This document shows, piece by piece, positions 3,284 through 20,251 of a stretch of DNA of 20,251 bases. The notes under the pieces are model-generated. The model saw only the letters and a program-made list of their open reading frames with translations. It did not search any database and was not told the origin of the DNA. The stretch is from positions 1 through 20,251 of the IMG/VR virus record IMGVR_UViG_3300033146_002678; one strand, given 5' to 3'. Every line of letters starts with the position of its first letter. Within the stretch, counting starts at the first letter, position 1. Source of the DNA: a virus. Both the position numbers and the translations under genes were made by a program.

Positions 3284-4528
3284 TTAATTTTCTTTATAAA
3301 TTTTCACTTTTTGATTAAAATCATACCATTCATCAATAGCCTCTTTTCCTTGTGTAATTGATACAGTATCATAACCTTGAATAATTTTATTTGCGAAATC
3401 TCTATAATATAAATCTGGAATAGTCCAATATCCTTCTGCACCTGGAGATAAATCTGAATTTTTTAACATTAAAAATCCTCTATATGTAACTTGTATTCTT
3501 GCTTCATTTGTATTAAAATCTTTAAATGATAAAACAGATTCAGCAGACATCTTATAAACTGCTGTTGATCTTGCTTTTAAACCTTTATTTGGTCCTGGTT
3601 CTGTACCATGATATAAACCATCTCTACCGGCTGATGTTGAATAATATTCATCATCTTTATCAACATCACCATTCTCATCTGGTATTCCATAATAATCTAA
3701 TGGTAATTCTACTGGTGTTTTTTCTCCAAATTTTTTATTATTACTTATATTAACATTTTGATTAACTCTATGATCATCACTTTCAGTATTTTGAGATTCT
3801 GTAAATTTGTATCTTGTTGATTTATCATTATATTCAGCATCTATCATATTATTTGATTTATGCTTTGATTTATAACCCATTTTTTTTAAATATTTCATTT
3901 TATCTTTACCTTTAAGTAAATGTAATTTTTCTCGTTCTTTCATATCTTTTTCCATTTCAGATGTTATTAAATCTTTAGTATATTCACCAATTGTTGAAAA
4001 TTTATGAATAAATTTATAATTTTCTTTATCATATTTCATAGACAAATGAATTAACCAATTATCATCAATATTAATATTTAATTCTCTATTTAATTTTTTA
4101 ATTATTTTTATTAAATCATTTTGATCAATAACATTCCAGAATCCAATTACTTTTTGAACAGACCAAACTCTACCTCTAATCCATTCAAAAATCAATTCTT
4201 CTTCAATATAATGATAAATCATATCATTTAATTCCATTTCATATTCTTCCTTACTATCAAAATCAGATTCATCAAAATCCCAATTAGTATAATTTAATGT
4301 ATTTTTTATAACCATATTTTTTATTTTTTCATAGTCATATAATTGATTTTCAAGAAAAAATTCTTGATGTGTTTGATATTCAAAAATATATAAATCATCA
4401 TCTGAAGATTCACACATAAAAGCAAAAGAATTTTCAGTAACATGATCTAGATATTCTTTTTCTCCTGTTTCTTTATTTATGATTTCTATATCATCTGCAT
4501 TTTCAAATATTTTAAATTTTGTTATCAT
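3284..4528 (-). CDS. Unknown protein, 414 aa, with capsid-targeting-like N-terminus
   Basis: I do not recognise a family. The N-terminus MITKFKIFE ends in I-F-E and resembles the short propeptides of T4 internal head proteins, which the gp21 protease cuts after (I/L)-x-E. The rest is acidic and helical to about residue 200, with a region rich in E, D, W and Y. A basic stretch follows at about 200-225 (MKYLKKMGYKSKHKS), then a low-complexity polar linker rich in N, D and S. The C-terminal part is compact (about 270-414) and rich in Y, G and aromatic residues. There is no membrane segment. It lies 64 nt downstream of the 287-aa gene, which has a similar N-terminus, so the two are probably co-transcribed. 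A packaged internal protein is the leading inference. Confidence 0.7.
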   Translation of the reverse strand: MITKFKIFENADDIEIINKETGEKEYLDHVTENSFAFMCESSDDDLYIFEYQTHQEFFLENQLYDYEKIKNMVIKNTLNYTNWDFDESDFDSKEEYEMELNDMIYHYIEEELIFEWIRGRVWSVQKVIGFWNVIDQNDLIKIIKKLNRELNINIDDNWLIHLSMKYDKENYKFIHKFSTIGEYTKDLITSEMEKDMKEREKLHLLKGKDKMKYLKKMGYKSKHKSNNMIDAEYNDKSTRYKFTESQNTESDDHRVNQNVNISNNKKFGEKTPVELPLDYYGIPDENGDVDKDDEYYSTSAGRDGLYHGTEPGPNKGLKARSTAVYKMSAESVLSFKDFNTNEARIQVTYRGFLMLKNSDLSPGAEGYWTIPDLYYRDFANKIIQGYDTVSITQGKEAIDEWYDFNQKVKIYKEN

Positions 4529-4592
4529 TATTTCATCTTTAAGTTTATTTACACCAATAAATAGGCATTTAAAAATTTTATAAAATCTGTAA

Positions 4593-5456
4593 TCATTTAA
4601 TTTCTAATTTTTTTAATCTACCAGTGTATAAATAATACATAAATGCTGTTTCAATATACATTCTACCAAATTCATCGATTAAATCCTTAATATTTAAATG
4701 TGTATAATATAAATCACTATATCCTACTTCAAATTTTATTAAATATTCATCTAATATAGTTAGTGAATTAAATTGTTTTTCTAATCTTTTTAATCTTAAA
4801 ATATCTTCATCATCCCTAGCATCTTCATATTCTTTAGCCGTTTCAGCTAATTTTTTATTATCATTTAAAAATTTTAAAATTTCTTCTGGTGTAGAATCTG
4901 TTGATATTTTTCCAATATTTTCTGCTATTGTTTTCATAACAATAGAATACTTTCTACCATAAATTCTTTTAATTATTGAATTAAAATGTTTTAAAATATA
5001 AATTTTAAAATCATCTGTTTCTTTTTCTAATTTTTCTGTTTGTGCTACTATTTTTCTATCTTGTTTAGGTTCTATTTCAAAATCAGATCCTTCTAACATA
5101 TAAATATCATCATTAATATTAATTGCATATGTTAATTGATTGTAACTAATTGTTTCTCTATCATCTATTCTAAAACTACCCCAACCATCTGTTTCTAATT
5201 TAAAATATTGTTTAGTATAATGTTGATAATTATTAATAAAAATATAAATATTTCCTTTTTTATCTAATTGAATAAAAAATTGTTTTTCATCTTTTTTTAA
5301 TTCTGATAATACATCTTTCTTCAACTTCATTTTAGTCCAAGTTGCATTAGAATTAATTTCAAAATTAATTTGTATTTCTTTCATTACTTCTTCAGGTACT
5401 CCTAATGATGTTAATGATGATTTTTCAAATAAATTAAATGTTTCTAAATATTTCAT
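4593..5456 (-). CDS. Unknown protein, 287 aa, with capsid-targeting-like N-terminus
   Basis: No family is recognised. It starts MKYLETFNLFE and then KSSLTSLGVPEEVMKEIQ. The first eleven residues match the MK-x-x-x-x-F leader with a terminal L-F-E, as expected for a prohead-protease propeptide. The N-terminal part after it is beta-rich (FFIQLDKKGNIYIFINNY; WGSFRIDD; DDIYMLEGSDFEIEP). The C-terminal half, from about residue 145, is helical and charged. There is no signal peptide or membrane segment. The start is supported by the leader pattern. A TTAATATATAA motif lies only 4 nt upstream of the ATG. Probable role: structural or internal head protein, expressed late with its downstream neighbour; this is inferred from the leader alone. 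Confidence 0.7.
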   Translation of the reverse strand: MKYLETFNLFEKSSLTSLGVPEEVMKEIQINFEINSNATWTKMKLKKDVLSELKKDEKQFFIQLDKKGNIYIFINNYQHYTKQYFKLETDGWGSFRIDDRETISYNQLTYAININDDIYMLEGSDFEIEPKQDRKIVAQTEKLEKETDDFKIYILKHFNSIIKRIYGRKYSIVMKTIAENIGKISTDSTPEEILKFLNDNKKLAETAKEYEDARDDEDILRLKRLEKQFNSLTILDEYLIKFEVGYSDLYYTHLNIKDLIDEFGRMYIETAFMYYLYTGRLKKLEIK

Positions 5457-5460
5457 AAAC

Positions 5461-5471
5461 TTATATATTAA
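5461..5471 (-). promoter_or_regulatory. TTAATATATAA motif, candidate phage late promoter
   Basis: The 11-mer TTAATATATAA on the minus strand lies 4 nt before the start codon of the 287-aa gene. The same 11-mer precedes the genes at 7327 (minus) and 9132 (plus). In such A/T-rich DNA this could be chance. Confidence 0.3.
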
Positions 5472-5488
5472 TTTATTAAAATGAAATA

Positions 5489-7327
5489 TTATAATAATAA
5501 TTCAAATTTCATTTGACCACAATCATATACTCTATTAGATATATCATTCATTATTTCTCGTTCAGACATATTTTTATCATATCCCATTTTAATTAATTTT
5601 TGTTTAGTATATTTCTGTTTATTGTGTCTTTTATTATTTATAACATATTTATAATTTATATCTGTTTCATATTTTAATACAAAATTTAATTTAAAATATA
5701 AATTTCCGTTACTCCATTCTTTGTCCGCAAATGATATTATTCTTTTAGGTTTGTATTTTTTAATAAAATATTTTAATAATTTTGATGCACCACCAACTAC
5801 ATTAGTATTTATTTTATTACAAAATCTACTCAGATTCCATTCATCATCATTCATTTTTTTTCTTCCTTCATTTTTATCAAATGTCATTAATGATACTAAT
5901 TCATTTTCAAAATATAAACCTATTTTTTTTGTAGATCTAATAAAACCCTGTATATGATTTTCATTTAAAAATTTTTTAACTGTTTTTGAATCTGTTATTT
6001 CCTTAATATCCGTTTTTCTTGCCCAAATCTTGTTTTCTGTTTTATTTAGCCAATTTTTAATTTGACTTTTTATTATATCTTTTTTATAATCCCAGTCATC
6101 TTCCCAAATATAAAATAATCTAATATTTTTTTCTCTAAAATAATTTAATTTATTAATATGTTTTCTTTTATCAATAAATTTATCAGAATGCCAATATAAT
6201 CCATTAAATTCAAAACCAATATTTAATTCTGGTAAAAAAATATCTATTTCTATTTTATCTCTATAATTTTCCACAATTTCACCATCATATATTGTCTTTA
6301 TATATTCTAATAACATTTTTTCTTTTAATGATGATTGTTCAGAAATAGGATAACACACTGTACATAAACAATTATTAGATTTATTTCTTGATTCAAAATT
6401 ATCTAAAGTAATTTTGAATGTGTGATTTTTTCCACAATCACATTTAAATTCTGATATTTTATTACCTAAATATTTAATATAATTTTCATGTTTCGCAATT
6501 TGATAATTATCTTTTCTAAATTTTTCAGAAAATTCAATATTAACTACACCATATTTATTTAATAGTGTTTGTGTGATTTTTTCTCTAATAATTTTTGATT
6601 TAAGCGGATTATCAACACCATACTTTTCAAGATTTGTTTTTTTAATTTTTTTAATAATAGTTTCATTCTTTAGTACATTATCAACTCCATATTTTTCTTT
6701 TATTGTTGATATTGTTTTTTTATAATATTTTGATGTTTTTTCAAATGGATATCCACCAGATTCTATTAATTTATTTTTTATTTTAGTTTTTATATCAACA
6801 TGTTGTGATATATTATGTACGCCATATTTTTCTAGAATAGTTTTTTCTCGTTTTTTATTTATTTTTTGTTGTTCATCATCTGTTCTGTTACTTAATGATT
6901 TTTTAATTTTTTCAGAATGTTTTTCAGAATTAAAATTTTCTTTTTTCTTATTTTTAATGCTTTCTAATTTTGATATATGATCAACACCATATTTTGATAA
7001 TGTTGTTTGTTTAGTTTTCTCAATATTTCTAAAATTTTCATCACCATATCGTTCTAAATTTGTTTCTTTTGCTTTAAGTAATCCACATTTTTGAGAACAA
7101 GAAAATTTATTTTGTTTTTTTATATTATTATAATAATTCTTTATAGTTATTTCTTTTTCATTATTACAGTAATCACATTTTGCGATTATATAATAATTAG
7201 AACCATGACCAAAATTTTCAATTGGAAAAAAATACTCTTTATCAATTTCTAAATTATCTTTTATTTTAGAAAATTTCTTTATATTATATTTTGTTATTTT
7301 AACTTTAACATTTTTACTTATTATCAT
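5489..7327 (-). CDS. Homing-endonuclease-like protein with Vsr/EDxHD-type nuclease domain
   Basis: This 612-residue modular protein looks like a free-standing selfish endonuclease. Residues 51-81 form a candidate zinc finger (C51-x2-C54 and C77-x3-C81). About 90-265 hold six KYGVxN-type DNA-binding repeats (YG at 94, 113, 168, 213, 236 and 259). A second cysteine cluster follows at 296-325. The nuclease core at about 355-415 has IEIDIFLPELNIGFEFNGLYWH then H390 and FYIWEDDW, matching the very-short-patch-repair-like EDxHD homing endonucleases (E360, D362, E373, H380). The C-terminal part (about 435-612) resembles a GNAT-like accessory module found in phage endonucleases: GFIRSTKKIGLYF, LSRFC, SFADKEW, YDCGQMKFEL. 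It sits between the gp32-like gene and the propeptide genes, just past the gp32 terminator, with a possible promoter motif abutting that terminator. Role: it likely cuts related genomes to spread itself. Confidence 0.8.
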   Translation of the reverse strand: MIISKNVKVKITKYNIKKFSKIKDNLEIDKEYFFPIENFGHGSNYYIIAKCDYCNNEKEITIKNYYNNIKKQNKFSCSQKCGLLKAKETNLERYGDENFRNIEKTKQTTLSKYGVDHISKLESIKNKKKENFNSEKHSEKIKKSLSNRTDDEQQKINKKREKTILEKYGVHNISQHVDIKTKIKNKLIESGGYPFEKTSKYYKKTISTIKEKYGVDNVLKNETIIKKIKKTNLEKYGVDNPLKSKIIREKITQTLLNKYGVVNIEFSEKFRKDNYQIAKHENYIKYLGNKISEFKCDCGKNHTFKITLDNFESRNKSNNCLCTVCYPISEQSSLKEKMLLEYIKTIYDGEIVENYRDKIEIDIFLPELNIGFEFNGLYWHSDKFIDKRKHINKLNYFREKNIRLFYIWEDDWDYKKDIIKSQIKNWLNKTENKIWARKTDIKEITDSKTVKKFLNENHIQGFIRSTKKIGLYFENELVSLMTFDKNEGRKKMNDDEWNLSRFCNKINTNVVGGASKLLKYFIKKYKPKRIISFADKEWSNGNLYFKLNFVLKYETDINYKYVINNKRHNKQKYTKQKLIKMGYDKNMSEREIMNDISNRVYDCGQMKFELLL

Positions 7328-7330
7328 ATT

Positions 7331-7341
7331 TTATATATTAA
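7331..7341 (-). promoter_or_regulatory. TTAATATATAA motif, candidate phage promoter for the endonuclease gene
   Basis: Minus-strand TTAATATATAA ends 3 nt before the endonuclease start codon and begins where the gp32 terminator ends, so a terminator and a candidate promoter abut. Confidence is limited by base composition. Confidence 0.3.
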
Positions 7342-7374
7342 AAAAAGACTATTAGTTTTTAATAGTCTTTTTTT
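7340..7374 (-). terminator. Rho-independent terminator of the gp32-like gene
   Basis: A perfect 15-bp inverted repeat (arms 7340-7354 and 7360-7374; TAATAGTC core flanked by A and T runs) has a 5-nt loop. On the minus strand the stem opens with an A-run and closes with a T-run, as a bidirectional intrinsic terminator would. It lies 17 nt past the gp32-like stop codon. Confidence 0.85.
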
Positions 7375-7391
7375 TGTTCTTTTTTATTCAC

Positions 7392-8360
7392 TTATTCTAT
7401 ATCAAAAAAATCATCTGCTTCTTGTGGTTCAGAATCAAAATCATCTGTATCAGTAGATGTTGTTGAATCAGTAGAAGTCGCACTTGCACTTTGAGCTGCT
7501 TTATATTCAATATTACCACTTAAAATAGCAAGAACATTATTTACTTTACCAGTAATTTTCTCATCCCATTTAGTTGCATTATGATCTTCTAACTTTACAG
7601 TTTTTTCAGATAAGAATGTTTTAATTTTATTATAAACACTTTCTGTTTTTTTAGCATCACCATCAAAACCAATAGTACCATCTTCTTTGATTGGTGCTGG
7701 CATAAATTTATCTGTTTTCTCATTATATAGTTTTATAGGTGATTCAGGTTTAAATGCTGAGGCATCATAATTTTGATATCCGGCTTTTTCCTTTATAATC
7801 AATTTGAAATCTTTTCCCTTAGCTAAATCAAAGACATTAGTTGGAACACCAGAAACTTCACCTTGTCGTTCTGAATTGATTTTTTCTTTAATAGTGTATC
7901 CATAAGGATAAACTAATATTTTACCAACTAATTCTGGATGTTGTTCATCTTCAATTACCATAATATAAGAATAATATTTTGTTGTTCTTGATAATTGATC
8001 TGCTTTTGCATTATCTGCTGCATTTGCTGAATTCTTTAATTTCCAATATTCTGTACATAAAGGACAATCTGATTCATGATTTTTCTTACAATCATAATAA
8101 CCTGATAAACCTGGTTCATTATTCATTTTAACATAATGGACATGCTTTTCAATTGCTGATGGTCCAATTTTTCCTGAATCTAATAAGTTAGGTAGAAATC
8201 TGATTAATGCATGATAGCCATGTTTTTTATCTTTTGCATCTTTTAATAATGGTCGATAAATACCATCTGTTGTTGTTGATTTTTTGTCAAATACTGACAT
8301 TGATGCATCATCTGCTTGCATACCTCCGAATAGGAAGTCATTTGCTGTGTTTTCACTCAT
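7392..8360 (-). CDS. 32: Single-stranded DNA-binding protein, T4 gp32-like
   Basis: This 322-residue protein binds exposed single strands during phage replication, recombination and repair and recruits the replication proteins. The gp32 layout is visible. An N-terminal arm holds a basic/serine-threonine patch KKSTT (26-30), like the cooperativity LAST motif of T4 gp32. The core OB-fold region holds a zinc-binding cluster with H73/H75, C91, C99 and C102 (YYDCKKNHESDCPLC), close to the His-Cys3 set of T4. Aromatic-rich DNA-contact strands follow (TTKYYSYIMV; ILVYPYGYTIKEKI). A low-complexity S/T tail ends in a strongly acidic stretch (DDFDSEPQEADDFFDIE), like the acidic C-terminus that binds partners. 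It has its own terminator. Its long non-coding leader carries repeats and a start-codon hairpin, suggesting autoregulation. Confidence 0.92.
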   Translation of the reverse strand: MSENTANDFLFGGMQADDASMSVFDKKSTTTDGIYRPLLKDAKDKKHGYHALIRFLPNLLDSGKIGPSAIEKHVHYVKMNNEPGLSGYYDCKKNHESDCPLCTEYWKLKNSANAADNAKADQLSRTTKYYSYIMVIEDEQHPELVGKILVYPYGYTIKEKINSERQGEVSGVPTNVFDLAKGKDFKLIIKEKAGYQNYDASAFKPESPIKLYNEKTDKFMPAPIKEDGTIGFDGDAKKTESVYNKIKTFLSEKTVKLEDHNATKWDEKITGKVNNVLAILSGNIEYKAAQSASATSTDSTTSTDTDDFDSEPQEADDFFDIE

Positions 8361-8362
8361 AT

Positions 8363-8387
8363 TTCATATAAGTATTTTTTATATGAA
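8363..8387 (-). promoter_or_regulatory. Hairpin covering the gp32 translation start region
   Basis: A perfect 9-bp inverted repeat (TTCATATAA and TTATATGAA, arms 8363-8371 and 8379-8387) encloses a 7-nt loop and ends 2 nt upstream of the gp32-like ATG. In the mRNA it would bury the ribosome-entry region. T4 gp32 represses its own translation through structured and A/U-rich leader RNA; a comparable operator here is inferred. Confidence 0.5.
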
Positions 8388-8425
8388 GTATAAAAAATTG
8401 TTGAATTTCGTTAAATAATAAAAAT

Positions 8426-8462
8426 TGCCTTAAATGCCTTAAATTCTTTTAAATCTTTTAAA
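8426..8462 (-). repeat. Four tandem TTTAAA/CTTAAA-type iterons in the gp32 leader
   Basis: On the plus strand TGCCTTAAA is repeated exactly (8426-8434, 8435-8443), followed by TTCTTTTAAA (8444-8453) and TCTTTTAAA (8454-8462). In the mRNA sense these become UUUAAA- and UUUAAGG-containing units. T4 gene 32 mRNA has UUAAA-type repeats in its translational operator, so these may bind the phage protein. Iterons of a replication origin are the alternative. Confidence 0.5.
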
Positions 8463-8641
8463 TCTTCACAATGTTTTTTTTCTGGAAAACTAACCATTTA
8501 AATTGCTTTCAAATTATATTATAAAATCAAAAAAAGTTGTTATTTTAATTATTTATTTTTAATTATTCTAAACAATTTTCATTCTAATTTTATACTACAA
8601 TTCTATATATTTGTTTTGAAAATTGCTTTTTTTCTCTTTCA

Positions 8642-8699
8642 TAACTATCTATTAATCAATACTTTATAGATATATAAGTCATTGATTAATAGATAGTTA
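8642..8699. repeat. Perfect 19-bp inverted repeat with 20-nt loop
   Basis: TAACTATCTATTAATCAAT (8642-8660) is exactly complementary to 8681-8699. The loop itself can pair partly (ACTT with AAGT), making a longer cruciform or RNA hairpin. It begins 10 nt past the stop of the 114-aa gene on the minus strand. It lacks the A/T-run flanks of the window's other terminators, so a terminator role is possible but not obvious. Confidence 0.85.
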
Positions 8700-8709
8700 A
8701 AAATAAAAA

Positions 8710-9054
8710 TTATTTTTTAAATTTATTTTTTATATTTTCAATATCTTTAATAACAATATCTGTTTTTTTATTAAATTTTTCAAGAATTTTTTCTTCATAA
8801 TTATCATCTTCAATAATTTTAAATTTAATCATATTATTTAAAGCATCTGACATAATTTGAGGTGAAATAACATCAATATCATCATTCAATATATATTTTT
8901 CAATATCCAAACAGAAATCATTATAATTTTCATATTTTGAATCAATATTTAATTCATTTAATGTATCATTAATATTAATCATAAATTGATAAAGATCATC
9001 ATAATCATCAACAAATTGTTGTTCTAATTTTAATTTAATTTCACTTATATTCAT
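8710..9054 (-). CDS. Acidic hypothetical protein, 114 aa
   Basis: No family is recognised. The protein is helical, acidic in its first 90 residues (DDYDD, NDDIDVIS, EDDNYEEK) and lysine-rich at the end (KDIENIKNKFKK). It has no cysteine except one near the middle (DFCLDIEKY) and no membrane segment or signal peptide. It is divergent from the giant structural gene at 9132, with about 77 bp between them. That gap carries two back-to-back TATATAA motifs at similar distances (18 and 20 nt) from the two start codons. The shared control region suggests expression together with the structural gene; a chaperone or assembly role would be speculation. Confidence 0.6.
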   Translation of the reverse strand: MNISEIKLKLEQQFVDDYDDLYQFMININDTLNELNIDSKYENYNDFCLDIEKYILNDDIDVISPQIMSDALNNMIKFKIIEDDNYEEKILEKFNKKTDIVIKDIENIKNKFKK

Positions 9055-9072
9055 TTAAAAAATTAATTTCAC

Positions 9073-9082
9073 TTATATATCT
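9073..9082 (-). promoter_or_regulatory. AGATATATAA motif upstream of the 114-aa gene
   Basis: Minus-strand AGATATATAA lies 18 nt before the start codon. The same 10-mer precedes the terminase-like gene at 19751-19760 (17 nt). It is a candidate late-promoter element related to TTAATATATAA. Confidence 0.35.
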
Positions 9083-9100
9083 TTTTTGAAGTGGTACAAT

Positions 9101-9111
9101 TTAATATATAA
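9101..9111 (+). promoter_or_regulatory. TTAATATATAA motif upstream of the giant structural gene
   Basis: This plus-strand 11-mer lies 20 nt before the ATG at 9132 and is followed by an A-rich leader. It is divergent to the motif at 9073-9082 and is a candidate late-promoter element. Confidence 0.35.
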
Positions 9112-9131
9112 AGAAAAATAAATTAAAATAA

Positions 9132-12100: not shown

Positions 12101-13436
12101 ATTTCATAATTTATTAAATATGAATTTACAAATCCCATTTATGAACACATTTACATCTTGGATAAAATATCATTTTTTAAATAAATTTAGTATTGGTGAA
12201 AAACATTCAACTGATTTATATGTGTCACCATTGACTGATTTAGAAGTTATAACATCTGCAGCAACATCTTATGGTTGGACTGGTTGGACAAGTGTATATA
12301 ATGGAAATGTTCTGAGTGCAGCACCACCACCAAATACATATAAATTTTCAAATAATGATGAAGAATTATATATTAATATTGATAATGATAGTGCAATAAA
12401 TAGAACAACATCACAAGATTATTATGCTCAATTTCAAATACAATTTGAAGGAAAAATATCATTTAATTTAAAAAGTACATTAAATATTCAAGGTGGTCAA
12501 GGTGTATCAGCTTTACCAGTTTTAACACCAACCCCAGATTATTCACAAATATTTGAATCTGCTAATATGACCACAGTTACAGTAAAAACATTATTAAGAT
12601 ATTCATATAAATATATATCAATATCAAATTTAATTGCATCAGGATCAAAAGTCTATTCTGTGAAATATTCAAGAAAACATACTTTAGCAGAAATAGAAAG
12701 TGTTTGTCCGGAATGTGTTATACCAAGCACAGGTTTATCATGGTATGGTATTCCAACAGATTCACAAAATTTAATTTATGATGATGATAGAATGGTTGAA
12801 GAAGATGATAGCATTTTTCACTTAAATGAATATGATACTAATATGTTTGAATCATATTGGAGATATCGAAGAGGACAAACAAATACATTTTTTGAGGGTT
12901 TTTCATATAATCCAATTTTAGATAATTATTATAATGATGAAGAAATTGATGAAGATGATGATGAAGATGATAATTTTGAAACTAATGGGATGTATGCTTA
13001 TAATTCTTCATATTTTGATTGGTTTAGTACAAGAGAATTTACAAATGAAGAAAAATCAAATTTTGAATTATGGAATAGTAAAATATCAACAACTTCAAGA
13101 TATTTTAATAGAAAAGCTGGTGTTCAACTTAAAGCAGATAATAGAAATGTTTCTTCATCTTCTTATAGAGATAAATTTTATGATGGAGTTTTTTATAGTG
13201 GTGATTTTCAAGGAGTTTGGGAAGGTGGAAAATGGGTTAATGGTTATTTTCATGGATGGAATAATTTAGTACCAGCAGGTAGTTCAGAAAGTCTAACTGC
13301 ACCATATGAAACAAATCCAAATACAAAAATTTCAGTTGTTAAAATACATAAAGATGATAAATTATTAATTAGTAATAAAAAATATTATGAAGTTGCACCA
13401 TGGGATCAAAGTAGAGATAATATAAGATTGAATTGA
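9132..13436 (+). CDS. Giant beta-helix-like structural protein (probable tail/baseplate or fibre component), 1434 aa
   Basis: A 1434-residue, low-cysteine, Asn/Gly/Ser-rich protein typical of phage appendages. After a non-repeated N-terminal region (about 1-195), short repeats of type W-x-N-G-x-F-x-x-G-x-F run from about 200 to 340 (WKNGYFIDGDFKG, WENGKFQGGTFWG). Softer repeats follow at about 360-470 (NGGEIHNSI, NGEIIDSTF, NGTIENSTI), and the sharp form returns at about 590-660 (WNNGNFYDGKFG). Repeats of this period usually stack as a beta-helix or beta-solenoid. About 660-1340 is non-repetitive, with an acidic run near 1267-1282 (EEIDEDDDEDD). The W/G-x-F repeats return at about 1345-1378 (FYDGVFYSGDFQGVW). 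The exact virion position cannot be fixed from sequence. It converges tail-to-tail with the minus-strand membrane protein gene at 13444. Confidence 0.7.
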   Translation: MTTLRYDDLGSVNAVKILPKIDSYNGFIQLYTEIDSHIEEGDNVFLTFTGDIVDSLNLDNSIYIDQEIDSYYSKYATGYNIIHVNKNINSFVIERKIFDIPQGIKPYDYYVSKISAQKLHISHMSIDSAIITTSDSIIDSCEWKQGVVFDADIINTTLINKYESNYISLNLIYNETTDTYTKINTLNNNLYGYSYFINSNNSITNSNIENGWFYNCRIKTQSNNIDNGYFDECKIEQAIINNGHYKNSTIDDDSEWNYGKWENSQNPFVIETWNDGIFLTGVFGDVDINNVSLGDSIWKNGYFIDGDFKGRLWENGKFQGGTFWGVTWDEGSGSESHKKTALFAGGFFNGGEMKPINNLYSPIVHDITINGGEIHNSILSNINLEYGKIIDSNIKFSELNGGEIINSNIILSNQNNSKIINSEFSDTKVLNGEIIDSTFYHKNIIKNGTIENSTIANDIIIYNGTFKSNIFKIINKSGLSGSISQKILKDGSNFVKKIYVEFINGHSFRPGDDLELNGFDDVELNNQILTIPPYNQYEDPTKYSGGSFAYFNSTGDTYVILEGIWRNHYQGAKGYLSGISHSVDSNDKIIIENGEFLLDDFDNVIINNGNFVNTNMHNGTIFNNGDFRGGYFSSILGIENENIWNNGNFYDGKFGARLSGSSEAYMSISDTKMEIFEDTIIENLNIKIVNIYPAQINSQINSLGSGVLSVGPSLSDIRPFNESDVMDSVPWSATTSTSSNNLTFSPYRLIVKIDCTDTENKGILKYRLDHLIDGLNVNIVDLAFKENNPNSSFEDIYSTFNDLYSNGSNESEYTMDSYQYIQYYIKNTNDTYIYLLFESEHVKNLYNDANSQEKTAFDLNFKNAWSITNSGYFTNPLPVLDNGLAGGTDNINNLDYFKIKENTNSPYSDEDWICGSNVPPWWLENTHTGTAQNIDRTNKYSVNWKHSPISINDLSYINTNNNVEIFVSGGTNPDYTQTTISEDVINHHSSFHNLLNMNLQIPFMNTFTSWIKYHFLNKFSIGEKHSTDLYVSPLTDLEVITSAATSYGWTGWTSVYNGNVLSAAPPPNTYKFSNNDEELYINIDNDSAINRTTSQDYYAQFQIQFEGKISFNLKSTLNIQGGQGVSALPVLTPTPDYSQIFESANMTTVTVKTLLRYSYKYISISNLIASGSKVYSVKYSRKHTLAEIESVCPECVIPSTGLSWYGIPTDSQNLIYDDDRMVEEDDSIFHLNEYDTNMFESYWRYRRGQTNTFFEGFSYNPILDNYYNDEEIDEDDDEDDNFETNGMYAYNSSYFDWFSTREFTNEEKSNFELWNSKISTTSRYFNRKAGVQLKADNRNVSSSSYRDKFYDGVFYSGDFQGVWEGGKWVNGYFHGWNNLVPAGSSESLTAPYETNPNTKISVVKIHKDDKLLISNKKYYEVAPWDQSRDNIRLN

Positions 13437-13443
13437 TTCTAAA

Positions 13444-13935
13444 TTATAATAATAATCCTATTAATAAACCAAGCACTAATCCTGTACCACTACCAATAAG
13501 TATTTTCTTATTTGATTTTTTACATTTTTCTTTATAGATATTTTCTGTTTCAACTAACTCATGTTCTTTATTTTTATATAATGAATCTTTTAAAACACAT
13601 TTAGATTTAGTTATATTAATCATTGAATCTAAGTTTGCTATTTTTTGTTCATATAACAAAACTATTTTATTAAAATCGTTTTTCTTTTGATTATATTTAT
13701 TAATATAAAAATCTCTTTGTTGAAAAGAATTGTAAATATATTGAGCTTGCTCAGTATCAAAACAATAATATACTGTATTATATTTTTTAATTACTATTGG
13801 TTTAATTGATTTTATATCATTTATTTCAAAATTATTGGTGTCTATAACCATTTGGGTCGTATCCTGCGAATATACTACTGATACTATCAGAAGAAAGACC
13901 ATGAAAAGGTGTAAGCGTAGGTTTTTCATTATCAT
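13444..13935 (-). CDS. Exported protein with C-terminal membrane segment; possible lysis (spanin-like) partner
   Basis: A 163-residue protein (161 if it starts at the second Met, MKNLRL). An N-terminal signal-like segment (LFMVFLLIVSVVYSQD) has a probable cleavage before QDT, as is common in Bacteroidota. There is no lipobox cysteine. A central region (YYCFDTEQAQYIYNSFQQRD) is followed by a long coiled coil (about 85-140), a basic KKSNKK, and a hydrophobic glycine-rich C-terminal segment ILIGSGTGLVLGLLIGLLL. Its 5' end overlaps the upstream 121-aa gene by 104 nt in another frame, like the overlapping Rz/Rz1 spanin genes. I infer a cell-envelope lysis role, possibly bridging the periplasm. Without a lipoprotein signal it is not a classical outer-membrane spanin. 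Confidence 0.6.
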   Translation of the reverse strand: MIMKNLRLHLFMVFLLIVSVVYSQDTTQMVIDTNNFEINDIKSIKPIVIKKYNTVYYCFDTEQAQYIYNSFQQRDFYINKYNQKKNDFNKIVLLYEQKIANLDSMINITKSKCVLKDSLYKNKEHELVETENIYKEKCKKSNKKILIGSGTGLVLGLLIGLLL

Positions 13936-14197
13936 GTTGATTATTTTTTAAAGAATCAATATCTGAACTTAGATTCTTATTAAGTGTTTCTAAATTAGTA
14001 TATAGTGAATCTAAATTATTTATTTTTTTATTTAAACTGTCTTCAATTAATTCATGTTTATGTTTAATATCTTTTAATTTATTTTTATATCCGGATTCTC
14101 CAGAAAAATATAAATAAGTAACTATTATTAATGCTATAAAAAGTATTATAGTTATAATATTATTAGATTTTACTTTTACTTCTATATTTTTATCCAT
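13832..14197 (-). CDS. Small membrane protein with periplasmic coiled coil; possible inner-membrane spanin
   Basis: A 121-residue type-II membrane protein. A short basic N-terminus (MDKNIEVKVKSNN) is followed by one membrane segment at about 14-31 (IITIILFIALIIVTYLYF). A charged coiled coil follows at about 38-86 (KDIKHKHELIEDSLNKKINNLDSLYTNLETLNKNLSSDID), then a flexible tail ending GYDPNGYRHQ. This is the layout of an Rz-type inner-membrane spanin: anchored in the inner membrane with its helix in the periplasm. The downstream gene starts inside it in another frame. It is divergent from the plus-strand gene at 14279. The function is inferred from topology and overlap only; the sequence shows no diagnostic motif. 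Confidence 0.6.
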   Translation of the reverse strand: MDKNIEVKVKSNNIITIILFIALIIVTYLYFSGESGYKNKLKDIKHKHELIEDSLNKKINNLDSLYTNLETLNKNLSSDIDSLKNNQHDNEKPTLTPFHGLSSDSISSIFAGYDPNGYRHQ

Positions 14198-14221
14198 ATT
14201 TTTAATCTTTTTTTCTTATAT

Positions 14222-14256
14222 TCAAAAAATGACTTTTTGATATTAATATATATATT
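14222..14256 (+). promoter_or_regulatory. Small inverted repeat and A/T promoter-like motif in the divergent gap
   Basis: TCAAAAA (14222-14228) pairs with TTTTTGA (14234-14240) across 5 nt, followed by TTAATATATATAT (14243-14255), which resembles the 11-mer before other late-looking genes. It lies between the divergent genes at 14197 and 14279 and may serve as their shared control region. Confidence 0.3.
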
Positions 14257-14278
14257 GTAAAAAAATAATATAAAAATT

Positions 14279-14794
14279 ATGAAAAACATGAAAAATTTAA
14301 AAGAATTCAAAACTACAAATAAGAGTGGTCAAAGAATTAATGAAGATGTAATGATAATGGGAAATGATTTTATTGTTAGACCTGCTATCACTATACCTGG
14401 TTCTTTAGTTTCACAATATATGAAAAAAGTAAAAGATGAAAATGGAACAAAATTAGAAGATAAATTTGGTAAAAATCAAATTGCAGAAATGTTAGTAAAT
14501 TATTTAGCTACTAATTTTATGAATATTGAAAATTTTCCAACTTCAATAACTGAAGGTACTGCTGCAACTCAAGTTCAACCTGTTCAAACTCAAATGCAGG
14601 CTCAACCACAAGCACAAATGCAACCTCAAACTCAATTACAAGATGAAGATGCACAAAATATTCAAGCACAAGCAACTGCTCAAGATATTCAAAGTCAAGA
14701 AGGTCAAACACAACCTCAAACACAACCTCAAACACAATCACAAGGACAAGGACAAGGACAAGATATCCAAGGCACACAAACACAAGCAATATAA
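14279..14794 (+). CDS. Probable internal head protein with propeptide-like N-terminus and Gln-rich tail
   Basis: A 171-residue protein in three parts. The N-terminal leader (from Met4: MKNLKEFKTTNKSGQRINE) ends in I-N-E, matching the gp21 prohead-protease consensus. A short folded region (about 23-90) follows: FIVRPAITIPGSLVSQYMKKV, then KNQIAEMLVNYLATNFMNIENF. It closes with S-I-T-E at about 89-92, a second consensus cleavage site. The remainder (about 95-171) is low-complexity Gln/Thr/Pro, with QTQPQTQP and QGQGQGQ runs. This plan recalls small prohead-core proteins that are trimmed during head maturation. The gene is followed after 3 nt by the 173-aa gene, so the two are co-transcribed. 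Met1 or Met4 could be the start; Met4 fits the leader pattern better. Confidence 0.65.
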   Translation: MKNMKNLKEFKTTNKSGQRINEDVMIMGNDFIVRPAITIPGSLVSQYMKKVKDENGTKLEDKFGKNQIAEMLVNYLATNFMNIENFPTSITEGTAATQVQPVQTQMQAQPQAQMQPQTQLQDEDAQNIQAQATAQDIQSQEGQTQPQTQPQTQSQGQGQGQDIQGTQTQAI

Positions 14795-14797
14795 AAA

Positions 14798-15319
14798 ATG
14801 GGATTAAAGAAATATTCAGAATATATTAGTGAAAATAAAAACATGAAAACTTCTACACCAGAAGTTGAAAGAATACCAAAAGTTGAAGAACCAAAAACAA
14901 GTGATTCAAAAAAAATTTCTATAAAAAAATCTAAACAGAATCAAAGAAAATCTGTAAAGATTCAACAAAAAGAAGAAGTTGTATCTGAATCAATTGTTTT
15001 TAATGGTAAAGTTGTATCTTTTTTTGGTCCAGTTAAACCAAGTTCAACTATTTCACTATTAGAATCTAAGAATATTTCTAAAGAAAAATTACATTTTATT
15101 ATAACTGAACAACAAGATTCTATTGTTATTTTGAAATATAATCTTGAAACCGAAATGAAATTAAAAAGTTTTACAGAAACTTTCATAAAATATCATCAAA
15201 ATAAATTAAATATTTTTGAAGGTGTTACTGTTGAAGGATCAGATACTTTTTCAATGATTAAGAATTTAAAAAATAATAAGAAATTATTAATAGAAAATCT
15301 TATTAAATTATTAAAATAA
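14798..15319 (+). CDS. Probable internal/prohead-core-like protein, 173 aa
   Basis: No family is recognised. The leader MGLKKYSEYISE ends in I-S-E, the expected prohead-protease site, and resembles the capsid-targeting leader of T4 internal proteins. It is followed by a disordered, very basic segment (about 35-60, rich in K, S and Q), which could bind DNA inside the head. A compact alpha/beta part follows from about 64 to 173 (ESIVFNGKVVSFFGP; KLHFIITEQQDSIVILKYNLE; a helical C-terminus). It starts 3 nt after the previous stop codon and is closed by a strong terminator, so the two genes form a two-gene unit. Confidence 0.65.
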   Translation: MGLKKYSEYISENKNMKTSTPEVERIPKVEEPKTSDSKKISIKKSKQNQRKSVKIQQKEEVVSESIVFNGKVVSFFGPVKPSSTISLLESKNISKEKLHFIITEQQDSIVILKYNLETEMKLKSFTETFIKYHQNKLNIFEGVTVEGSDTFSMIKNLKNNKKLLIENLIKLLK

Positions 15320-15334
15320 TTTTTATTATAAAAC

Positions 15335-15365
15335 AAAAAAGTCATATTTGAAATATGGCTTTTTT
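15335..15365 (+). terminator. Rho-independent terminator after the 173-aa gene
   Basis: A 14-bp stem (15335-15348 with 15352-15365, one G-T wobble) has a 3-nt TGA loop. It begins with an A-run, ends in a T-run that extends past the stem, and starts 16 nt after the stop codon. Confidence 0.85.
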
Positions 15366-15403
15366 TTATTTATATATATGTTAATAAAAAATGTTATATT
15401 ATT

Positions 15404-16795
15404 ATGAAAAAATTTAAGAATTTTTTAAATGAAACAATAAAAATAGAAAATCTAATTGTAACATCTCTTTATAGTGAAAAACAATTAAATAATATTGCAG
15501 AAAATTGGAATGATGAAATATTATTTGATTTTGATGATATTTTTAATGAAATGAATGTAAATAAATCTATCATAAAATTAAATATATTGAATGATAATAT
15601 AAGTTTATATTTTAGAAGTATAACAAATGGAAAATTTGAAATCATTGCACCTTATTTTTTATTTCCAAATTCATTACGTTTAGAAAATTCAAATCATAAA
15701 AAATATCAAGGAGTATCATTTATAAAAGCAAATTTAAATTTAATGGATATTTTAGATATATTTGATTTAGATACAAATACAAATAAAATAACATATCAAA
15801 TACATAGAGATGAAACATTTATTAAAACAAATTTCACACAAGTTAAAATAGATAAAAATATTAAAAAAGAAATATCAAATTTAATAGTGGATGCAGGATT
15901 TGAAAGAAAAGGAGACTTAACAAAAAAAATAGAATTTCTTTCAGACATAAAAAATAAAGGTAAAACAATTCAAAGTCAAATTTCTGGTATAATTTTATTA
16001 GATTACTTATCAGAAATTAAAAATAACTTTAATGCAACTACTGCTGGATTTCTAATTGAAGGATTTATTGCTGGATTAATAGATGCACATAATTTTGATG
16101 ACAATTCAGCAGTTGATGTAGTATATCATAAACAAGGATATCAAAAGGGTAGAAATTATCAGATTAAATTTTGGGAAGGCAAAACAACGGATATGAATAA
16201 ATATATGGAAAAGAAAAAAACTACACAACTTGGAAATTTAATTAATAGAATGAAAGAAATAAGTGATCGAGAAAATTATATTTTAATGATACTCAAGGAA
16301 AAAAATAATAAACTAAATATCATAAATATTCCATTAAATGATTATGTCATTCAAGGTTTAACAGAAAATATTGAACCAGGTCAACATGGTCCAAGATTTA
16401 CATTTACACAATTAAAAGAATGGGGAAAAAATCCAAACACATTTCCAAAACCAAAAAATATAAATAATAAAAATAATAAAAATACTTCTTTATTTGATAA
16501 ACGAAGAATAACTAGTCTTGGTATTATAGATTTATCAAATATTGATGAACAATTATTTAATATTAATAAAGATCTAAAAACAAATTTAGAAGATTTATGG
16601 ATAAATATCAAAAAATTACAAATTGATGTACAAGATATGACAACTAAAAATACTAAAGAAATTCGAAATAAATATAAATTAAAAGGCAGAACACCATTAT
16701 CACCTGAAAAACAAGAAGCATCAAAACAAGCAAAAAAAGTTGATAAACTTATACAGAACACATATAAAACTATAATAAATAATAAACTAAAATAA
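15404..16795 (+). CDS. PD-(D/E)XK-like (putative nuclease) protein with capsid-targeting-like N-terminus
   Basis: A 463-residue protein starting MKKFKNFLNE and then TIKIE. The leader matches the T4-type capsid-targeting propeptide, with cleavage expected after L-N-E (residue 10). A helical/beta region of unknown type spans about 15-180. The middle holds an E219 (FLIEGFIAGL), D238 (SAVDVV), Q253-x-K255 (NYQIKFWEGK) arrangement, the spacing expected of a PD-(D/E)XK-type nuclease core. This is a pattern match, not proof of activity. The C-terminus (about 345-463) is Asn/Lys-rich, with coiled-coil-like helices. It lies 9 nt upstream of the DHH gene, probably in one operon. A DNA-processing internal protein injected with the genome is the leading inference; a non-catalytic virion protein is the alternative. 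Confidence 0.65.
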   Translation: MKKFKNFLNETIKIENLIVTSLYSEKQLNNIAENWNDEILFDFDDIFNEMNVNKSIIKLNILNDNISLYFRSITNGKFEIIAPYFLFPNSLRLENSNHKKYQGVSFIKANLNLMDILDIFDLDTNTNKITYQIHRDETFIKTNFTQVKIDKNIKKEISNLIVDAGFERKGDLTKKIEFLSDIKNKGKTIQSQISGIILLDYLSEIKNNFNATTAGFLIEGFIAGLIDAHNFDDNSAVDVVYHKQGYQKGRNYQIKFWEGKTTDMNKYMEKKKTTQLGNLINRMKEISDRENYILMILKEKNNKLNIINIPLNDYVIQGLTENIEPGQHGPRFTFTQLKEWGKNPNTFPKPKNINNKNNKNTSLFDKRRITSLGIIDLSNIDEQLFNINKDLKTNLEDLWINIKKLQIDVQDMTTKNTKEIRNKYKLKGRTPLSPEKQEASKQAKKVDKLIQNTYKTIINNKLK

Positions 16796-16804
16796 AAAAA
16801 AAAT

Positions 16805-18577
16805 ATGAAAAATTATAAAAATTTTACAACAAAATTAAATGAATCAGCTCCAAGAATACCAAATTCAGAAGATTATTGGATAAAAAAAGGTAAAGTTGGT
16901 AAAGAAGTTATGATATATTTTCATGATGATTTAGATGGTATATATTCTGCAACTGTTATGAAAAATTATCTTGAAGGTAAAGGTTTTAAAATACATGGAT
17001 ATGGTATTGTGAATTATCAAGAAGGTTGGAATACAACAAAATTAGATCCAAAATATATTAATATTGCTCTTGATTATGCAGATAATACTGATGGTATAGA
17101 TGTTTATATGGATCATCATGGTTCTTTTGATTTAGAAAATGTTAAAAACAAAGAAAAAAATAGAGGATCTGTTAAAACAGAAACAACTTCTGCTTATGAA
17201 GGAATTTGTGATCAATTAGGTGTACCAATTGATGGTACTATTCAAAATGTTATTGATATGGTTGATTCTGCTAAATATGATGATTATGAGATTGAACAAG
17301 AAGTTTTATTAGATTTTGACTTCAAAAAATTTAAATCAAAATTAGAATTTGCTGCAGCATTTAATCAAATGTTAAAACGTTCAGATCATAAAACTTTTAT
17401 TGAAGTTGTTGCAAATTCAACAGATATGGCACCATCAATTTATAATGTATATCGTTTATTTAGATTATTGTATCCATCTAATAACATGAATTTATGGGCT
17501 TTAAAAAAGGCTGCAAAAAATGCTGGCTTTGGTACAGATATTGATAAATATATTAATCATTTAAAATTAAATGATAACGAATTATTAAAATCATTTCAAA
17601 AAGATTTTATTGAAGATGCTCAATGGAGATTGAAAACTATGCAAGAAAGAACAAGAGGGAAAGGAAGATTTTCTAAAGAAACTATACATTCACAAAGAGA
17701 ATTTTGGAATAAATTTCATACACCAAACGGAATTAAACCGGAAGGCTATCAAATTCTAGGTAATATGGTTTTTGTACCAAGTGGGACATGGGCAAATGCT
17801 TTGAGAGCAAGAGCAATAGTTGAGAAAGATATGGAAAAAATTACTACTAAATTAGATGTAGAATATGGAAAATCAGATAGTTTAATTCCAACAATTGAAT
17901 ATATAATAGATAAAAATAGTCCATTATATTCTGATTTAGAAGGAAGAATCGGTCAAAAATTAGAATTAATTGGTGATATTTCATATGAAAATAATGAAAC
18001 ACATATAAAAATTATTGAAGATCTTACTAATAGTGATACAAATAAAGAAGGTATAACTGGTTTTATAGATAAAGATAATGAAAAACTTTTATTCAGAGCA
18101 AAACAACCAATTTTCTGGATATTGTTACAATATGGAAACACATTTCAGGTTGCATCATATCATAAATTAGAAAATTATGATGAAAACTATTTACCTAAAT
18201 TAAAAGATGGTACAACTGTTGGAAATCTTGGTAAATATTGTGAAGTTTTATTAAAGAATTTTGAAACCCATTTTGGTTTAGATCCAAATGCTGTTGAAGG
18301 TGTGACAACTGTTGCTGGTGGACATAAAGGAATTGGTTCAATATCGAATGTCTTTGGTAGAGCAACAAAAATTTATCCTGGATCAAGATTTTTAGATTTA
18401 ATTAAGAATAAAATGATTCAAGATTTATCAGGAATTTCTTGGCCAGATATTAAAATGACTTGGGGAGATGAAAGTGAAGAAAGAAAGCCTTTTAAATCAA
18501 CTGAAAATGAAATGAATAAAAAATCAATTTTGGCATCTGATATCAGAAAAGCACAAGATATACAAAATGAAGATTAA
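16805..18577 (+). CDS. DHH-DHHA1 family phosphoesterase with capsid-targeting-like N-terminus
   Basis: A 590-residue protein with the full motif set of DHH phosphoesterases. HDDLDG (40-45) is motif I, DYAD (90-93) motif II, DHHGS (103-107) motif III, and DMVDSAKYD (151-159) supplies the motif-IV aspartates. All are metal-ligand positions, so an active Mn-dependent enzyme is likely. Near the C-terminus AGGHKGIGS (504-512) matches the substrate-binding GGH motif of DHHA1. A long helical insert (about 170-370) and a small beta region (about 380-440) separate them. Relatives include RecJ exonuclease, nanoRNases and cyclic-dinucleotide phosphodiesterases; sequence alone does not choose the substrate. 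The leader MKNYKNFTTKLNE ends in L-N-E, suggesting packaging into the head and prohead-protease trimming. It follows the nuclease-like gene by 9 nt and ends at a strong terminator. Confidence 0.85.
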   Translation: MKNYKNFTTKLNESAPRIPNSEDYWIKKGKVGKEVMIYFHDDLDGIYSATVMKNYLEGKGFKIHGYGIVNYQEGWNTTKLDPKYINIALDYADNTDGIDVYMDHHGSFDLENVKNKEKNRGSVKTETTSAYEGICDQLGVPIDGTIQNVIDMVDSAKYDDYEIEQEVLLDFDFKKFKSKLEFAAAFNQMLKRSDHKTFIEVVANSTDMAPSIYNVYRLFRLLYPSNNMNLWALKKAAKNAGFGTDIDKYINHLKLNDNELLKSFQKDFIEDAQWRLKTMQERTRGKGRFSKETIHSQREFWNKFHTPNGIKPEGYQILGNMVFVPSGTWANALRARAIVEKDMEKITTKLDVEYGKSDSLIPTIEYIIDKNSPLYSDLEGRIGQKLELIGDISYENNETHIKIIEDLTNSDTNKEGITGFIDKDNEKLLFRAKQPIFWILLQYGNTFQVASYHKLENYDENYLPKLKDGTTVGNLGKYCEVLLKNFETHFGLDPNAVEGVTTVAGGHKGIGSISNVFGRATKIYPGSRFLDLIKNKMIQDLSGISWPDIKMTWGDESEERKPFKSTENEMNKKSILASDIRKAQDIQNED

Positions 18578-19678: not shown

Positions 19679-19750
19679 TCAAAAATGTCATTTTTTTAAC
19701 ATTTAATTGAAAAATTATTCAACATATTCTATTTTTTGACCATCAATACT

Positions 19751-19760
19751 AGATATATAA
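19751..19760 (+). promoter_or_regulatory. AGATATATAA motif upstream of the terminase-like gene
   Basis: It is identical to the motif before the 114-aa gene, lies 17 nt before the ATG at 19778, and is followed by an A-rich leader. It is a candidate late-promoter element. Confidence 0.35.
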
Positions 19761-19777
19761 CATTAAAAAAGAAAAAT

Positions 19778-20251
19778 ATGGTATTTGATAAAGAAGAAGT
19801 TGAAAAGATAATATGGAAATTCAAAAATAAAAAAAAAATAACAAGAACAGAAAATATATTTTTTCAGAAAGATATTGATTTACGAAGAGAAAACATTAAA
19901 TATATTTTTTCAAAAAACGAAATGAATGAATATGCTAAATGTTTTAATTCAATTGAATATTTTATTGAATCTAATTTTAATATATTATTATTAGATTATC
20001 AAAAAAATATAATAAAACAATATCAAGAAAATAGATTTCAAATATATGCTCGTTCATATCAAATAGGATTTTCTAATTTAATGAGTATGATATATTTATG
20101 GGAATTGTGTTTTAAACCAGATTTTACAATAACATACATTGATAATAAATATAAAGGTTCTAATGAAATGATGAATAATTTTAAGAAAAATTATAAAAAA
20201 ATACCATTTTTTTTAAAACCAGGTATTAAATCATGGAATATAAAAAATATT
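19778..20251 (+). CDS. Terminase large subunit-like (T4 gp17-like) protein, N-terminal fragment, degenerate Walker A
   Basis: The frame is open to the window edge; 158 residues are visible. From residue 71 it follows the start of the T4 gp17 ATPase domain: LLDYQKNIIKQYQENRFQIYA where gp17 has LRDYQ and a strand before the P-loop, and later FFLKPGIKSWN where gp17 has FLQPGIVEWN. The P-loop position reads S-Y-Q-I-G-F-S (93-99) instead of the expected S-R-Q-x-G-K-T, so both the arginine and the catalytic lysine and threonine are replaced. A normal terminase pumps DNA into the prohead using this ATPase. This copy may be an inactive paralogue, a repurposed subunit, or a sequence with a compensating motif. 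Downstream Walker B and nuclease domains cannot be seen. Confidence 0.75.
   Translation, partial: MVFDKEEVEKIIWKFKNKKKITRTENIFFQKDIDLRRENIKYIFSKNEMNEYAKCFNSIEYFIESNFNILLLDYQKNIIKQYQENRFQIYARSYQIGFSNLMSMIYLWELCFKPDFTITYIDNKYKGSNEMMNNFKKNYKKIPFFLKPGIKSWNIKNI

Follow-up and report, generated by a model that had tools for sequence, protein, structure and literature searches.

Candidate T4-type capsid-targeting leaders on unrelated proteins of a viral DNA fragment and of giant T4-superfamily phages

The window analysed here, the whole 20,251-base IMG/VR fragment IMGVR_UViG_3300033146_002678, yielded 16 to 18 genes, six of which (A414, B287, C171, D173, E463 and F590) begin with a short N-terminal leader. 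Open reading frames (ORFs) were called simply under genetic code 11, which fits all genomes read, and start codons are uncertain. An initial annotation had proposed that these leaders are capsid-targeting/prohead-protease signals ending in (I/L)-x-E and that the six genes form a set at positions 3284 to 18577. All six leader ORFs and their N termini were confirmed, and the leaders lie within this span, although it also includes untagged genes (gp32, a homing-endonuclease-like gene, a gene for 1434 amino acids [aa] and two small membrane-type genes). A strict leader pattern matched five of the 16 to 18 genes, compared with approximately 0.05 expected from internal-methionine (internal-Met) controls; the sixth leader, that of C171 (MKNLKEF...RINE), was missed owing to the long spacer before its INE and is kept in a homologue on contig G002. 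All six leaders have the T4-type layout, in which two hydrophobic or aromatic residues spaced i,i+3 (around residues 4 and 7) precede (I/L)xE, the P3 residues being I, L, I, I, L and L.

Two of the genes are on the minus strand. The leader of A414, MITKFKIFE (4502 to 4528), has the pair F5/F8 and the site IFE, and leaders of this type (MIKKFKIFE/MITKFKLFE) are abundant in giant phage genome LR756501; the 405-aa mature protein (3284 to 4501) has no family. B287 carries MKYLETFNLFE (5424 to 5456), a strict match, ahead of a 276-aa mature protein (4593 to 5423) for which sequence comparison gave no confident family. Relatives of A414 or B287 were not found in named phages. The remaining four genes are on the plus strand. 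The C171 leader, MKN-MKNLKEFKTTNKSGQRINE (14279 to 14344), measures 19 aa from its second Met, has the pair L4/F7 and precedes a mature protein whose ORF translation is Q-rich in its C-terminal half (14345 to 14794). D173 consists of the strict leader MGLKKYSEYISE (14798 to 14833) and a mature protein (14834 to 15319). The leader of E463, MKKFKNFLNE (15404 to 15433), is in the register of T4 IPIII MKTYQEFIAE at positions 4, 7, 8 and 10. By eye only, a PD-(D/E)xK-like D-x(n)-QIK motif was seen in mature E463 (15434 to 16795); with no Pfam family and only a weak PHROG match, the description of this protein as nuclease-like is unproven, and a distant homologue is present in LR756502. IMG/VR scans for close relatives of E463 and of A414 found none, and AlphaFold2 models of E463 and B287 were too poor for a fold search (predicted local distance difference test scores of 36 and 43, respectively). 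F590 combines the strict leader MKNYKNFTTKLNE (16805 to 16843) with a mature DHH-type phosphoesterase (16844 to 18577). The DHH label holds, as the HDDLDG, DHH and GGHKGIG motifs are kept across three F590 homologues (HDDMDG instead of HDDLDG in LR756501); the Pfam DHH match (E = 0.0054) is under the curated cut-off, and a sequence search of the PDB gave nothing useful.

Near-relative contigs with the same gene neighbourhood as the window were identified in IMG/VR, all from one metagenome (L001/G001, L296/G002 and L297/G003). Four of the six window bodies are conserved in these single-metagenome homologues while their leader letters differ. The B287 body shares 68% and 58% identity with its homologues, and the leaders MKYLETFNLFE, MITKFKLFE and MYINFNKFLLE are all joined to it at the identical E, with KSSL... 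directly after. In the G002 homologue of C171 (65% identity over the aligned part) the leader is MKNMKNLNDFKSIKTGKKLNE, followed by T, with RINE and KLNE at the equivalent position. D173 begins with MGLKKYSEYISE in the window (ISE), MGLKKYTEYIGE in L001 (IGE) and MLKKYTDYINE in G002 (INE), and a homologue of its body without a leader lies in LR756501 (579392 to 579778). The L001 copy of D173 (6733 to 7163) is frame-shifted, through either a true mutation or an assembly error, and retains MGLKKYTEYIGE as its leader. Similarly, F590 starts with MKNYKNFTTKLNE in the window, MKNFTNYTKLNE in G002 and MIKEFHNFALNE in LR756501, and the G003 version is leaderless, the start codon replacing E at the junction (M-SAPRIPNSE). 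The slot of E463 is occupied in L001 by a different protein with the leader-like start MKKYKTYVDELITE. A414 residues 247 to 332 share 71% identity with an L296 leader gene (MKHLKTINE/Y..., the slash marking the junction) and 56% with one in L297 (MRYIKNINE/I...), and thus correspond to a stand-alone leader-bearing protein in relatives. Given the same-E junctions, the leaderless F590, the E463 slot and the stand-alone part of A414, the leader behaves like a cassette with E as its last residue. The proposal that otherwise unrelated proteins share one modular tag is therefore well supported by the exchanges of body and leader and by the leaderless F590 that starts at the junction.

A partial, untagged T4-type terminase large subunit lies at the end of the window (19736 to 20251, plus strand; phrog_5989, E = 2e-23), and an untagged gp32-like single-strand DNA-binding protein is encoded at 7392 to 8360 (minus strand; PF08804, E = 1e-19); judging from these two genes, the source of the window is a T4-superfamily phage. 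The gp32-like gene serves as a synteny anchor, the same neighbour being present in G002 and G003, and the best near-full-length matches of the terminase are phages of 635 to 735 kb. Four giant relatives (462 to 735 kb, T4-superfamily) and four comparison genomes were read, phage G and P-SSM2 in part. The search for further leader-starting proteins, which the initial annotation had suggested for the phage itself, was run on the giant relatives and found 36 to 158 per genome, compared with 5 to 9 expected. With internal-Met controls, leader starts were found on 77 of 973 proteins in LR756501 (735 kb; 6.1 expected), which also carries the F590 homologue, on 158 of 939 in LR756502 (642 kb; 8.7 expected), on 141 of 909 in LR745206 (5.4 expected) and on 36 of 636 in LR756500 (7.8 expected), whereas Bacillus phage G had 4 in 510 (2.2 expected). 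Under the strict pattern the numbers in LR756501, LR756502 and LR745206 were 66, 89 and 66 (3.0, 4.2 and 3.2 expected). Among the near-window sequences that had played no part in the design of the patterns, leaders were found on 14 of 99 and 7 of 33 genes. As a positive control, ipII and ipIII of T4 were recovered. A first, loose motif was dropped for tighter and E-independent tests because its enrichment was just 2.4-fold.

As the leader patterns had been written after the genomes were seen, a seven-residue box that does not depend on E, M[KRN][YHF][ILV]xx[FY], was also used. This box starts 116 proteins in LR756502 and 96 in LR745206, and none in either Bacillus phage G or PTm1, a Bacteroidota phage with a Tenacibaculum host (both 30% GC). 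An E follows within four residues of the box in 88 to 89% of these proteins (88% in LR756502), compared with 23 to 25% expected (23% in LR756502), and in both genomes it sits at position 8, 9 or 11, never at 10. In the box proteins of LR756502 the residue after E is usually S, G, N or A, with S in 50 of them. Across the leaders, P1' is S in 32%, A in 11% and N in 10%, whereas S follows random [ILV]xE in only 7%. The claimed (I/L)-x-E ending, valid for all six window leaders, is too narrow for the relatives, in which P3 is also F, Y or T.

Among leaders beginning MK[HY]L, 73 of 75 have different 24-mers through the use of varied synonymous codons, and selection therefore acts on the peptide. 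In orthologue pairs from LR756502 and LR745206, the leader is present in both members in 35 cases, in one only in 12 and 17, and in neither in 338 (odds ratio [OR], 58; P = 2e-27), and co-retained leaders often differ in letters, as in MKYLRTYE/GFDHL and MIIKKYIKFINE/EFDHL. Tagged genes in LR756502 are clustered, with 67 adjacent pairs compared with 26.5 expected. In the three largest phages, tagged genes account for approximately 8 to 15% of the genome. For a highly specific leader DNA pattern, a scan of 84,980 genomes of bacteria and archaea gave one hit, compared with 94 matching stretches in viral contigs.

In all four giant genomes the head genes are ordered portal, S77-like (gp21-like) protease and gp23 capsid protein, the last matching PF07068 over its cut-off. 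The protease forms the N-terminal domain of a protein of 630 to 810 aa, the C-terminal part of which is possibly the scaffold; in LR756502 the protease is encoded at 225272 to 227371. The catalytic residues H85, S140 and D168 of the T4 protease, together with E9 of its own LIE site, were aligned in the three giant genomes compared residue by residue. As a check, the initial annotation had called for a gp21-type protease gene elsewhere in the phage's own genome; the 20-kb window, a fragment, has none, and the protease was found in all four giant relatives and in each of three long IMG/VR contigs rich in leaders. PTm1, without box starts, also encodes the protease. Capsid proteins of the giants contain HQMNE/N, HQINE/N, HSINE/N and HELYE/N in the N-terminal region that matches the T4 gp23 propeptide, with the predicted sites (slashes) placed by motif and position. 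Leaders and capsid proteins are mostly I/L/M/F/Y-x-E and the protease matches S77, in contrast to the S/A-x-E sites of the S80-type system of phiKZ and SPN3US.

The tagged cargo includes DHH phosphoesterases in four phages (that of the window, LR756501, LR756502 and, as its orthologue, LR745206), a T4-Rnl1-type RNA ligase, PPK2, and ankyrin and methyltransferase proteins. The RNA ligase orthologue in LR756501 is leaderless. Among the large LR756502 proteins sampled, ribonucleotide reductase, Hsp70, topoisomerase, an elongation factor, the portal and the capsid protein are untagged. The label "effector" is reasonable for some of the cargo, such as the RNA ligase and the DHH phosphoesterases, and some of the tagged proteins could belong to the core or the inner head.

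Residues 4 and 7 of T4 IPIII direct it to the capsid and residues 8 and 10 its processing, gp21 cutting after L/I-x-E (PMC9026906). The leaders described here are in our judgement probably greatly expanded propeptides of this T4 type, serving capsid targeting and prohead proteolysis in giant T4-superfamily phages with predicted Bacteroidota hosts. This part of the original proposal agrees with the sequence tests applied, namely, the T4-like register, the gp21-like protease of the giants, the capsid sites and the conservation of leaders despite changes of letters; packaging, leader cleavage and injection are what these features predict. The window leaders have the T4 IPIII layout, MKKFKNFLNE matching the determinants of MKTYQEFIAE, and docking on the core followed by protease removal after shell closure would therefore be expected. 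The basic N-terminal box with its i,i+3 hydrophobic/aromatic pair would, from the T4 IPIII precedent, dock a protein on the prohead scaffold core, and the shell would close round the docked cargo. The S77 protease encoded between the portal and the major capsid protein would then cut after E, where the site is conserved, and free the cargo, which would stay with the DNA in the head and at least in part enter the host. Enzymes such as the T4-Rnl1-type RNA ligase, the polyphosphate kinase and the DHH phosphoesterases might act there ahead of early gene expression. Because this cassette stops precisely at E, cargo has been exchanged, fused or released from the leader during evolution, as the sequences show.

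Several points weigh against this reading. The patterns were drawn up after the giant genomes had been viewed, and counts there are somewhat favoured, a bias lessened by the box-only test and by G002 and G003. P3 is frequently F, Y or T, looser than the L/I of T4. PrkA and GluRS of LR756502 were rejected as false positives of a loose class-D pattern, and a DnaB-like match in LR756501 is probably a further one. The protease matches PF03420 under the curated cut-off in LR756501, LR756502 and LR745206, and no solved structure emerged when the LR756502 protease was compared by sequence with the PDB. A protease was sought without success in G001, G002 and G003, but these contigs are fragments and the negative result therefore says little. 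Between 75 and 160 kinds of packaged protein would far exceed the T4 number, and virion presence and N-terminal cleavage are predictions from sequence.

The tagged proteins might instead be packaged and cleaved chiefly as parts of the core or inner body or for head completion, with few injected effectors. Most of them have no family, the head of the giant phage SPN3US contains approximately 50 proteins that serve many purposes (PMC5694885, PMC7411985), and T4 IPIII influences head assembly too (PMC9026906), all of which would suit such a role; we nevertheless regard it as unlikely for the majority, as the gain, loss and swapping of cargo among close relatives, exemplified by the E463 slot, suit accessory cargo more than conserved morphogenesis parts, and the RNA ligase, PPK2 and DHH proteins have no obvious head-building role. 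Less probable still is that the leader sorts proteins to another phage structure, such as a replication compartment, a membrane or an assembly site, with E as an uncut recognition residue. A basic amphipathic N terminus could suit several sorting systems, and cleavage is itself a prediction; however, homology begins directly behind E, small P1' residues are enriched, the register is that of the T4 signal, and the predicted site of the capsid protein, which in T4 is a known protease substrate, conforms to the same consensus. It is very improbable that the leaders are an artefact of base composition at gene starts, by which A-rich starts in low-GC Bacteroidota-infecting phages yield MKK or MIK plus F or Y and E follows by chance. 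The GC content is indeed low and upstream regions are A-rich without a Shine-Dalgarno sequence, yet this idea is disfavoured by the two 30% GC controls lacking box starts, by the placement of E at 8, 9 or 11 in 88% of box proteins, by the synonymous codon variation and by the near confinement of the leader DNA pattern to viral contigs.

T4 has only a few proteins tagged with a capsid-targeting sequence (CTS), at least one of which counters a host defence. The leaders resemble those of T4 IPI, IPII, IPIII and Alt in being N-terminal propeptides with determinants at 4 and 7, an L/I-x-E cut site and unrelated bodies under one tag, and the giant relatives share with T4 an S77 protease encoded beside the portal and gp23. 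Unlike the few of T4, up to 75 to 160 genes are tagged per giant genome, E occurs in several registers (8, 9, 10, 11, 12, 13 and 19), P3 is less restricted, and both the long protease protein and the cargo (RNA ligase, PPK2, DHH, ankyrin and methyltransferase) differ. T-even internal proteins are diverse defence proteins with the CTS alone in common (PMC3012670), and infection of certain hosts requires IPIII (PMC9391042). Like the inner-body and ejection proteins of phiKZ and SPN3US, the tagged proteins belong to giant-phage heads and would be many, packaged and cut after E during maturation; those phages differ in having an S80 protease, S-x-E/A-x-E sites, often long propeptides and processing of 8 of approximately 50 head proteins (SPN3US). 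A likeness to P1 Dar and the polyvalent proteins of tailed phages would lie in head packaging, co-delivery with DNA and anti-defence activity, although those proteins are large or multidomain, and we know of no common 8- to 20-residue leader of such a type among them. Passages of the huge-phage study assign phages of 634, 642 and 735 kb, with Bacteroidetes as predicted hosts, to the Mahaphage clade, and the passages searched make no mention of such a leader (PMC7162821); no description of the tagged-leader expansion was found in the open-access papers that could be searched. T4 already provides the precedent for the tag, for the protease and for internal proteins that are injected; the novelty here lies in the scale, in the use of several leader registers, in a less strict P3 and in the signs from evolution of a cassette that ends at E. 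A few T4-like leaders also occur in cyanophage P-SSM2 (NC_006883.2, 99763 to 100529, 158143 to 159417 and 169737 to 171458), namely, MRTFQEFLQLCE, MKSFKQFLEE, MKSFSQFLTE (on a protein annotated as a cytidyltransferase) and MKSLSQFIIE, and may mark packaged proteins.

A second short peptide, [RK][IV][YF]S[DE]xDPYGEE[ND]W[ED] (core, DPYGEE), is present in 104 copies in 89 different LR756501 proteins, 37 at the extreme C terminus (many on small and some on membrane-type proteins), 21 near the N terminus and 46 internal. N-terminal copies are often directly behind a leader (association with leaders, OR of 5.8), and codons vary between copies. The peptide was not found in seven other genomes tested, and a literature search gave no relevant paper on it; approximately 30 viral contigs (IMG/VR loci L298 to L391) have it, and as many as 15 copies lie within 13 kb. 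At L350 (9394 to 10443) and L362 (130 to 1797), repeat units lie approximately 110 to 140 aa apart, each with a DPYGEEDW end, and some are followed by D[VI]NE/S-like sites. In A414, a possible internal site, YKFTE244/S (3797 to 3799, minus strand), identified by position only, would mark the junction with the second cargo domain. The L350 and L362 loci, and A414 near residue 244, are possible leader-headed polyproteins. As protease sites behind internal DPYGEE copies are enriched just approximately 2-fold (29% compared with a background of 14%), they stay a lead.

Elsewhere in the window, the homing-endonuclease-like gene (5489 to 7327, minus strand) has a DNA match in LR756500. LR756500.1 encodes a large protein family with common 5-mers, such as YWWVV and ADDFG, and this family and the window gene may be related endonucleases. 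An overlapping pair of small minus-strand genes (13444 to 13935 and 13832 to 14197), one with an N-terminal membrane anchor and the other with a signal-peptide-like stretch at its start, keeps its synteny in L001 and is spanin-like from layout only. From reading alone, a sigma-70-like factor (430 to 1038) and an SPFH/band-7-like membrane protein (1305 to 2162), both leaderless, are encoded on the minus strand.

It is an evenly balanced possibility that approximately 8 to 15% of the genome in the giants encodes a tagged protein payload, made in advance and comprising some 75 to 160 kinds, including some leader-headed polyproteins that the prohead protease also cuts internally, and that the takeover and anti-defence proteome with which infection would then begin could be listed from sequence alone. 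A sequence-readable tag on up to 75 to 160 proteins per giant phage allows the cargo of uncultivated phages to be listed in testable form, and it singles out many proteins of unknown fold as candidates for anti-defence or host takeover. It helps explain the use of some of the extra coding capacity in the largest phages and may list the proteins that a giant phage brings into its host.

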